From assembly GCA_023665085.1 (NCBI GenBank), contig JAMPEQ010000002.1, positions 1 to 64,000 on the forward strand: 64,000 bases of DNA, read 5' to 3'. Positions 845 to 33,975 of this stretch are shown here, piece by piece. The notes beneath the pieces are model-generated. The model was not told the origin of the DNA. It saw nothing but the letters and a program-made list of their open reading frames with translations, and ran no database searches. The DNA comes from Bacteroides sp. GTDB lineage: Bacteria > Bacillota > Clostridia > Oscillospirales > Acutalibacteraceae. Within the stretch, counting starts at the first letter, position 1; every line of letters starts with the position of its first letter. The position numbers and the translations under genes are program-made.

Positions 845-1855
845 CTACACCTCCAGCCATACTGCATGAGCAATACCAGGAATAGAATTACCCTGCTTGC
901 TGGAGGTTGGCGACATAAGCGCACCGGTTGCAACAAAAAGCAATTTTTTCAGTTTTCCCTGTTCCATCTGCTTAAGAATATGAGAGCAAAGCACTGACGC
1001 ACTGCAGCCGCAGCCTGATCCGCCTGAATTTACATCCTGCTCTGCAAGATCAAATATCATCAAGCCACAGTCCTTATGATTATTTTTTATATCAATGCTA
1101 TGCTCTTTCTTTAAAATTTCATAAAGAAGATTACTTCCTGTAAAGCCTAGATCACCTGTCAGAATCATATCAAAGTCAGCGGGTTTTGTTCCTGTATCCA
1201 TAAAAAAGCTATACAAAGTATCAGCGCATGCAGGTGCCATTGCCGCACCCATATTGTTAGCATCGGTAATACCATAGTCAACAATTTTTCCTATATGTGC
1301 TGCTTTGACCTTAATTTCATTTTCAGCATTTTTACTTTTTTCAACAACTGCACTTCCTGCACCTGTAACAGTCCACTGAGCTGTTGGAGGGCGCTGACCG
1401 CCGTATTCAAGAGGAAAACGAAATTGCCTTTCACTTGAGCAGAAGTGACTTGATGTGCCTGCAACAATACAGTCTGCACCACTATCAACCAACATAGAAC
1501 CTACCGAGAGCGACAAAGCCATTGTAGAACACGCACCAAACAAACCGATTGAGGATATATTCAAGTCCTTAAGTGCAAAGGCTGATCCCATACACTGATC
1601 AAGCAAATCACCGCTAAGGATATAGTCCACCTCAGAAGGACTTTTAGAAGCACTTGCCATGGCTCTTATAATTGCATCATGAAGCATTGCTGATTCTGCA
1701 AGTTCATATGACTGCTGTCCCATAGAAGTATCTTCAAAAATCGCATCAAAATTCTTTGCCAGAGGTCCTTCTCCCTCTTTTTTACCAACAACGCCTGCAT
1801 GACCTGTAATAACAGGCGGAGTATCAAAAATCATTGTTTTTCCTTTTTTGTGCAT
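845..1855 (-). CDS. spoVAD: Stage V sporulation protein AD
   Basis: 336 residues, close to family length. SpoVAD has a thiolase-like fold. In Bacillus it binds dipicolinic acid and works with the other SpoVA proteins to load DPA into the forespore and release it at germination. Seen here: the family N-terminus (IFDTPPVITGHAGVVGKKEG), the FGACSTM segment at the thiolase nucleophile position, and the Gly/Cys-rich stretch SGGSGCGCSASV near the C-terminus. No spoVAC or spoVAE lies beside it; only a 52-residue membrane protein follows, coupled by one base. The start at 1855 has GAGGTG seven bases upstream, and that Shine-Dalgarno is the 3' arm of a hairpin (1863-1889). It indicates a sporulating organism. 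Confidence 0.93.
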   Translation of the reverse strand: MHKKGKTMIFDTPPVITGHAGVVGKKEGEGPLAKNFDAIFEDTSMGQQSYELAESAMLHDAIIRAMASASKSPSEVDYILSGDLLDQCMGSAFALKDLNISSIGLFGACSTMALSLSVGSMLVDSGADCIVAGTSSHFCSSERQFRFPLEYGGQRPPTAQWTVTGAGSAVVEKSKNAENEIKVKAAHIGKIVDYGITDANNMGAAMAPACADTLYSFFMDTGTKPADFDMILTGDLGFTGSNLLYEILKKEHSIDIKNNHKDCGLMIFDLAEQDVNSGGSGCGCSASVLCSHILKQMEQGKLKKLLFVATGALMSPTSSKQGNSIPGIAHAVWLEV

Positions 1856-1889
1856 AATAAAACACCTCGGTTATATTTTAACCGAAGTG
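1856..1889 (-). promoter_or_regulatory. Terminator-like hairpin that sequesters the spoVAD ribosome binding site
   Basis: In minus-strand RNA an 11-bp stem (5' arm CACUUCGGUUA, 3' arm UAACCGAGGUG, one U-G pair, 5-nt loop) is followed by UUUUAUU and then the spoVAD ATG. The 3' arm carries the GAGGUG Shine-Dalgarno. The structure could terminate transcripts from the upstream amylase gene, block spoVAD translation on read-through RNA, or both. The + strand version has a C-A mismatch where the minus RNA has the G-U pair, which fits function in the minus transcript. Confidence 0.7.
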
Positions 1890-1916
1890 CTTAAAATTAT
1901 TTATCAAAAATTTTTA

Positions 1917-33051: not shown

Positions 33052-33675
33052 ATGGCAAAAACAATTCCTATGATTATAACAAACAGTAAAATACTTGTTA
33101 AAGCAAAAGACTCTGATGAGTTCAAGCCCTTTTCAATGCCTGCAATATGTCCGTCTCCAAACATTCCTTTTTATCATGAATTTGCAGAAAAAATTGCCGA
33201 AGGGCAATATTATTTTAAAGAATTCATGAAAAAGCTTTACGGAAATAAGCTTTCAAAATACATTTTTGCTATTATTGTGCCTGACGACACCAGCAAGCTT
33301 GAGTCAATATTTATAAACGAATTTTTCGTAAATTCAGGTGCTTGCAAGGCGGTGGCACAAATGCCTATGGCTCTGGCACTTTCAAAGGAAGAAGACAAAT
33401 ACATTTCCATATCAAAGTCTCAGAGGAATGTCACACTTGAATATGTCAGAAACAATGAAACGGTTGTAAAAAAATATTATGACATACACACCTGCTTACC
33501 TGAAAAAGTAATTGAAGATTCAAGCGTACTCCATATTGATGTTGAATATAACGACATACCGATATTTGTAAATAATTTTAATCAAAATATGGATGAATTT
33601 CTTGAATTCGGCGAGATAATAACCCCTAAGCAATTTTTGGACAAAATATCAGTTATAGATGTTGAAAAAATTTAA
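33052..33675 (+). CDS. Uncharacterised protein with an actin/MreB-like segment
   Basis: 207 residues from the ATG at 33052 (GAGAGG upstream; the ATG at 33037 overlaps that site). I do not recognise a family. Residues about 75-125 run IFAIIVPDDTSKLESIFINEFFVNSGACKAVAQMPMALAL, then DKYISISKSQRNVTLEYV. The order resembles MreB/FtsA: a hydrophobic strand followed by V-P-x-D/S, a helix, a gap, then a helix ending P-M-A-x-A-L, then a strand. It lacks visible phosphate-binding loops (no DxG at the N-terminus), so nucleotide binding is doubtful. The gene stands alone; its 3' end runs into the terminator-like hairpin at 33685. Confidence 0.6.
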   Translation: MAKTIPMIITNSKILVKAKDSDEFKPFSMPAICPSPNIPFYHEFAEKIAEGQYYFKEFMKKLYGNKLSKYIFAIIVPDDTSKLESIFINEFFVNSGACKAVAQMPMALALSKEEDKYISISKSQRNVTLEYVRNNETVVKKYYDIHTCLPEKVIEDSSVLHIDVEYNDIPIFVNNFNQNMDEFLEFGEIITPKQFLDKISVIDVEKI

Positions 33676-33684
33676 ATAAACAGA

Positions 33685-33721
33685 CACCTCCTGCAAAAAC
33701 TATTGCAGGAGGTGATTTTTT
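33685..33721 (+). promoter_or_regulatory. Perfect 12-bp hairpin plus U-run containing the next gene's Shine-Dalgarno
   Basis: Arms CACCTCCTGCAA / TTGCAGGAGGTG with a 6-nt loop, then A and six T, then the ATG of the 58-residue gene at 33722. The 3' arm is a near-ideal ribosome binding site and the 5' arm is its exact complement. As DNA it is also a textbook terminator for the gene at 33052. Confidence 0.85.
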
Positions 33722-33898
33722 ATGCCAAATAAAAAAGATAAGAAACAAGACAAGAAAAAGCCTGTAATTGATTTAACATCATATCTCAGTCCTGAAATAG
33801 TCAATGCTGATATAAACGGCAGTTATACAGGTGTTCCTGCTGAAACGTATTATAATGACGAATTGGTTGAACCAATACAGGATGCTGACGACTTATAA
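33722..33898 (+). CDS. 58-residue protein, Lys-rich head and acidic tail
   Basis: ATG at 33722, stop TAA at 33896-33898, with GGAGGTG exactly seven bases upstream inside a hairpin. Residues 1-15 are Lys/Asp rich (KKDKKQDKKK). The middle reads PVIDLTSYLSPEIVNADINGSYTGVP, and the C-terminus is acidic, ending PIQDADDL. No signal peptide or membrane segment. The strong ribosome site, biased composition and bracketing hairpins argue for a real small gene. No function can be given. Confidence 0.7.
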   Translation: MPNKKDKKQDKKKPVIDLTSYLSPEIVNADINGSYTGVPAETYYNDELVEPIQDADDL

Positions 33899-33903
33899 TT
33901 CAT

Positions 33904-33953
33904 TGTGTATATCAGAAGCATTACTGAATAGTTTGATGCTTCTGATATACACA
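33904..33953. repeat. Perfect 18-bp inverted repeat
   Basis: The arm starting TGTGTATATCAGAAGCAT at 33904 and its exact complement ending at 33953 flank a 14-nt loop. No T-run follows on either strand, so it is not a standard terminator. It sits between the 58-residue gene (6 nt after its stop) and the ribosome site of the oxidoreductase (9 nt later). Confidence 0.85.
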
Positions 33954-33975
33954 CTACACAAATAGGAGTAATAAA

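Follow-up and report, generated by a model that had tools for sequence, protein, structure and literature searches.

In IS10 and IS50, an external read-through transcript hides the ribosome binding site (RBS) of the transposase. In Bacillus subtilis, a large hairpin is predicted to block translation of sigG from read-through of the spoIIG operon and cannot form from RNA of the sigG promoter (PMC5942855), and in phage T4 the RBS of the late genes e, soc, I-TevI and segB, as well as that of Aeh1 mobE, is sequestered in early or middle read-through RNA, the late promoter being placed so that the late transcript cannot form the hairpin (PMC2988022). A hairpin ahead of a 58-codon gene in the window (the whole 64,000-nucleotide stretch of DNA analysed) is probably an element of this sort, a compact read-through insulator for a forespore gene, with the promoter of that gene inside the hairpin. 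The features of this locus, and of another gene in the window that shares its layout, are:

33052..33675, + strand: co-directional upstream gene, 207 aa, found just upstream in nearly all orthologs
33674..33678, + strand: proposed forespore promoter -35, AAATA, overlapping the upstream stop codon, with ATA at -21
33685..33696, + strand: 5' arm (anti-SD), CACCTCCTGCAA, read directly from the sequence and covarying with the 3' arm in orthologs
33693..33702, + strand: proposed -10 region, GCAAAAACTA, whose core AAACTA is the hairpin loop; the loop motif is conserved
33697-33702, + strand: loop AAACTA, read directly
33703..33714, + strand: 3' arm, TTGCAGGAGGTG, holding the Shine-Dalgarno (SD), read directly
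33707..33715, + strand: SD, AGGAGGTGA, read directly
33716..33721, + strand: T6, both terminator-like U-tract and spacer between SD and start codon, found by scan and conserved
33722..33898, + strand: open reading frame of 58 codons, family ending P[VIE]QDADDL, proposed forespore gene
845..1855, - strand: spoVAD (TIGR02845 above cut-off), preceded by a hairpin
1856..1905, - strand: spoVAD leader, with -35 AAATA, -10 GGTTAAAATA in the hairpin loop and SD GAGGTG in the 3' arm

The two arms form a 12-bp hairpin (33685-33714) that begins 9 nt after the stop codon of the 207-aa gene (33673-33675) and buries a strong SD in its 3' arm, which is followed in order by A (33715), T6 (33716-33721) and ATG (33722). 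The predicted fold is -22.7 kcal/mol (z -6.6), equalled by none of 200 shuffles, and the stem is that of an intrinsic terminator: 12 bp with 7 G-C pairs, then A and T6. Sequence and folding thus bear out the earlier sequence-only reading, which had described a perfect anti-SD/SD hairpin followed by A, six T and the ATG of a 58-codon gene and had seen in it a combination of terminator and SD-sequestering features; both are present, as a stem with U-tract and as an SD in the 3' arm. An Rfam search returned tRNA elsewhere only, with no match for the hairpin.

That reading had also proposed a reusable module in this lineage, to be checked by a scan against shuffled regions. In 764 kb of the same genome, taken as stretches with 658 called genes, a strong hairpin was defined as one scoring at least 18 and ending 2-14 nt ahead of the start codon. 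Three of the 658 starts carry one (the 58-aa gene, spoVAD and a PBP gene), against 0.05 expected from dinucleotide-shuffled upstream regions. Of the 38 terminator-like hairpins between co-directional genes of this genome, the ones at these three genes stop 4-7 nt short of the start codon, and no other comes closer to it than 17 nt; a T-run of at least 4 just 5' of the start occurs in 8% of 656 genes, yet is usual at the hairpin loci. A covariance model built from the hairpin was used to find further copies in the same genome and in relatives. In the same genome these lie before a pdaA-like deacetylase gene (behind an MgtC-like gene), the PBP gene (behind a U32 peptidase) and spoVAD (behind a GH13-like enzyme), the upstream genes being named by eye, with weaker candidates before a TIGR04086-like gene (behind a YajC-like gene, also named by eye) and a lactate dehydrogenase gene; in relatives they precede spoVAD, pdaA-like, PBP, SpoIIQ-like M23, spoVAE and DUF378 genes. 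SpoVAD and SpoVAE pass the NCBIfam cut-offs, while PdaA and SpoIIQ are best or second-best matches below cut-off, and sporulation genes dominate the list. The proposal of a module therefore holds, in seven gene families counting the 58-aa gene and more often than in shuffles, as does the claim that two genes of the window share the design: spoVAD, presumably the other gene meant, has the hairpin AAGCACTTCGGTTA-AAATA-TAACCGAGGTGTTT with a 7-nt spacer between SD and start.

Several related arrangements were observed alongside these copies. Beyond the genus, genes distantly related to the 58-aa gene also have SD hairpins, at L219 and L256 (strong by fold) and at L248 (by eye), with loops resembling TATACT or ACACTA. 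In two other families of the order (L292, L294), DUF3298/PdaC-domain genes that immediately follow a co-directional gene have the SD of their start inside a hairpin. A repeat whose ends read CTGCCCAC...GTGGGCAGAAAGGCTATG sits just ahead of the spoVAD or pdaA-like start codon in several relatives (L106, L124, L129, L135); at L129 the former SD and T-run are found upstream of this repeat, which suggests an insertion supplying a new RBS. In relative G033, L285 and five more copies form a multi-copy repeat (MPRSYIHISQYEKEILDLKQ...) with a similar SD hairpin before the start, possibly a read-through-protected transposase. The sigG gene of the window's own genome (G000:C28:64366-65133, minus strand, L087) has a leader in which a forespore-like -10 is followed by an RBS hairpin that recalls the one of B. 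subtilis sigG; at -7.4 kcal/mol (z -1.1) it is, taken alone, within chance.

The 58-aa gene was found in 41 of the 98 relatives searched, all 41 within the genus. Eubacterium coprostanoligenes ATCC 51222 (L029, L205), where the hairpin before the gene is strong, is among the matches, and a family with a similar C-terminus, ending PVQDADDL, is widespread in Clostridia. The 58-aa protein has no Pfam, NCBIfam or meaningful PHROGs match; the 207-aa protein, conserved in the genus, fits no family of Pfam or NCBIfam, and comparison with PHROGs and the PDB gave no meaningful match. Downstream, a long perfect hairpin without a T-run (GTGTATATCAGAAGCAT...ATGCTTCTGATATACAC, 33905-33955) lies between the 58-aa gene and a FAD/Rieske oxidoreductase gene. 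Among these gut bacteria, relatives of E. coprostanoligenes, the hairpin is present in 37 of the 41 loci, and for 7 of its 10 pairs both partners vary. The covariation score is 0.321; shuffling gave 0.232, with 0/500 shuffles as high, and sliding gave no more than 0.145. The loop is unexpectedly constant.

The forespore sigma-F/G consensus is GNATA, about 15 nt, then GGNNANAHTR. Among the 41 orthologs of the 58-aa gene, 35 have a loop reading A-N-A-H-T-R, a motif shared by two unrelated families, and ATA stands exactly 21 nt upstream of it in 27/35 orthologs, 22/24 spoVAD and 12/23 pdaA-like loci, with counts of 0-8 at other offsets; G is at -4 in 23/24 spoVAD loci. Across families a bipartite motif results, xATA, 14 or 15 nt, GNNN-ANAHTR, whose -35 part immediately precedes the 5' arm and whose -10 part occupies the loop. 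In loci outside the model building, GNATA-N14/15-GNNNANAHTA occurs at 8/8 SpoIIQ-like starts and a looser -35 (GATTA, TAATA, AAATA or GAATA) at 10/11 PBP starts. The copy before the 58-aa gene deviates from the consensus in having AAATA, not GNATA, at -35 and GC, not GG, at -10. The loop motif and the ATA at -21 resemble forespore sigma-F/G promoters, and it is from this resemblance that a forespore sigma factor is suggested. A study of Clostridium difficile lists spoVAC-AE and pdaA as sigma-G genes (PMC3789822). Given the promoter motif and the companion genes, the 58-aa gene is proposed to be a sporulation gene expressed in the forespore.

A PWM scan of the 658 genes placed a GerA-family gene, a DUF421 gene and sigG, all outside the training set, in the top 17; as the scan includes two training loci, only such non-training matches count. 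The DUF421 and GerA genes, near the top of the ranking, form a divergent pair without hairpins. A loose promoter regex matches 68 of 658 ordinary gene starts (10%) at the same position, and a search of the same genome with the 15-nt-spacer pattern gave chance-level matches only, a result explained by the 14-nt spacer that the families here mostly use. In SASP genes, taken as a positive control, the motif was not clear. The alpha/beta SASP gene is itself split in this genome, its C-terminal half (G000:C26:154466-154582, L174) and N-terminal half (G000:C26:177498-177584, L179) lying about 23 kb apart on one strand; it is split likewise in G007, G001 has the N-terminal piece only, and a skin-like element in the ssp gene may be responsible. 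Two other candidates were rejected: a TATAAT-like sigma-A promoter just upstream of the hairpin has no consistent -35, and the GTATA there fits a forespore -35 better, while a pseudoknot between the A-rich loop and the U-run would leave a connecting nucleotide too short, by reasoning, to span the stem.

The overlap of hairpin and promoter suggests how the element could work. RNA entering from the upstream gene would fold the hairpin and stop at the U-tract and/or hide the SD, and with read-through blocked in this way the spore gene would stay silent in vegetative cells. Because read-through RNA contains both arms, with the U-tract after the stem, one would expect termination as well as masking of the SD; which of the two matters more cannot be told from sequence alone. 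The 5' arm (33685..33696) falls mostly within the spacer between -35 and -10, an economical geometry in which the 14 nt of promoter spacer double as the greater part of the anti-SD arm, and the position of the loop motif predicts that transcription starts within the 3' arm, beyond the 5' one. Forespore sigma-F/G RNA polymerase would thus start at about 33708-33710, judged by -10 spacing, and the resulting transcript, lacking the 5' arm, would not fold, would pass the U-tract and would be translated from an SD near its 5' end. In folding predictions the SD of the 58-aa gene is 88% paired in RNA from upstream, as in the T4 late and sigG type of arrangement, and its accessibility rises from 0.12 in read-through RNA to 0.55-0.60 in RNA starting in the 3' arm, the modelled start being 6-8 nt past the loop; for spoVAD the corresponding rise is from 0.0006 to 0.41. 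With a predicted length of only about 12-15 nt, the leader could lack part of the SD.

An element serving against read-through should be needed only where transcription arrives from upstream, again as expected of the T4 late and sigG type. The hairpin is kept at 76 of 78 loci with a co-directional upstream gene and at 3 of 13 otherwise (p 3e-9, shared ancestry ignored), with L119 counted as co-directional (the ORF called upstream is antisense) and L060 set by hand to 'no upstream gene'. For spoVAD alone the figures are 16/17 and 3/9. Of the 13 loci that have no co-directional gene upstream, in contrast, 12 still carry the promoter motif, compared with 68/658 ordinary starts, which indicates that the RNA arm is needed only against read-through and the promoter always. 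The gene upstream of spoVAD changes repeatedly (two GH13 types, GatB, RpiB, RlmH, ribosomal protein L20 and others, by eye), and 9 of 10 co-directional neighbour families keep the hairpin, whereas none of the 5 divergent families has a uniformly strong one, the hairpin being weak or absent in most members. Exceptions are HisF-spoVAD (L112), co-directional yet without a hairpin, and L061; hairpins are weak at L115, L125 and L126.

It is possible that the hairpin is an ordinary intrinsic terminator of the upstream gene, pushed against the next RBS by genome compactness and holding no dedicated internal promoter. The stem, U-tract and A-rich 5' flank are terminator-like, and the upstream stop is only 6-20 nt away in most orthologs of the 58-aa gene. 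However, this is improbable: the spoVAD hairpin stays across about ten upstream families, up to 358 nt away, and the conserved loop holds a -10 whose -35 lies a constant distance away, AATA being rare near ordinary terminator loops here (7/107). In translational coupling, ribosomes ending the upstream gene would open the hairpin and fix a protein ratio. This could account for the nearby stop in the 58-aa family and for loss of the hairpin where the two genes separate, but spoVAD and pdaA-like hairpins persist behind unrelated genes with 300-358 nt between stop and start, and of the explanations weighed here it is the least likely.

The fully buried SD and the conserved loop sequence would also suit a regulated leader, whose own transcript holds the whole hairpin until a factor, temperature or ligand opens it (a thermosensor, riboswitch or loop-binding protein). 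This was the sense of the sequence-only reading, in which expression is shut unless the stem is opened, and it fares poorly: most loci that lack a co-directional gene upstream have lost the hairpin but kept the loop motif, a conserved -10, a dependence on orientation that a sensor or switch on the gene's own transcript does not predict. The motif is, furthermore, common to the hairpin-less GerA and DUF421 gene starts, and neither an Rfam match to a known aptamer nor a hairpin kept whatever the upstream gene, as expected of a riboswitch or thermosensor, was found. A regulated leader is accordingly very unlikely, and it is more likely that transcription begins within the hairpin, bypassing the block, than that the stem is opened. 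For the read-through insulator preferred here, it is fairly likely, with less assurance than for the element itself, that a single stretch of about 50 bp combining -35, anti-SD arm and spacer, -10 and loop, SD and start site in the 3' arm, and U-tract shields forespore genes from read-through genus-wide and perhaps more widely in Clostridia (L219, L248, L256).

If this is true, small genomes could silence compartment-specific spore genes directly behind vegetative genes without DNA for a separate terminator. The arrangement would also give a signature by which forespore genes not yet known could be recognised from sequence, as here for the small protein ending PVQDADDL that is widespread in clostridia, and a caution that some predicted terminators hide promoters.

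The sigma-F and sigma-G promoters of B. subtilis and C. difficile share a similar motif and the targets spoVA and pdaA, and an overlap with hairpins is not described in the available parts of those sources (PMC3789822, PMC7438776). A literature search, with most matches judged by title and abstract, did not find the compact version or its recurrence described. B. subtilis sigG is likewise a forespore gene with a hairpin that is predicted to act against read-through and is absent from RNA of its own promoter, but it is a single gene with a hairpin of 20 or more bp, whereas here stems of 10-15 bp precede many genes, with the -10 as part of the loop and the anti-SD within the spacer between -35 and -10. 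The T4 late genes also hide the RBS in read-through RNA and escape the hairpin from their own promoter, using phage late promoters where sporulation sigma factors are suggested here; their hairpin is not known to be combined with a U-tract that itself separates the SD from the start codon. IS10 and IS50 differ in that the protected gene belongs to a mobile element; the 6-copy repeat of G033 has a similar hairpin. In summary, the principle is already known from B. subtilis sigG and phage T4 late genes, and the compact form that recurs here, in which the promoter spacer contains the anti-SD arm and the loop contains the -10, looks new.
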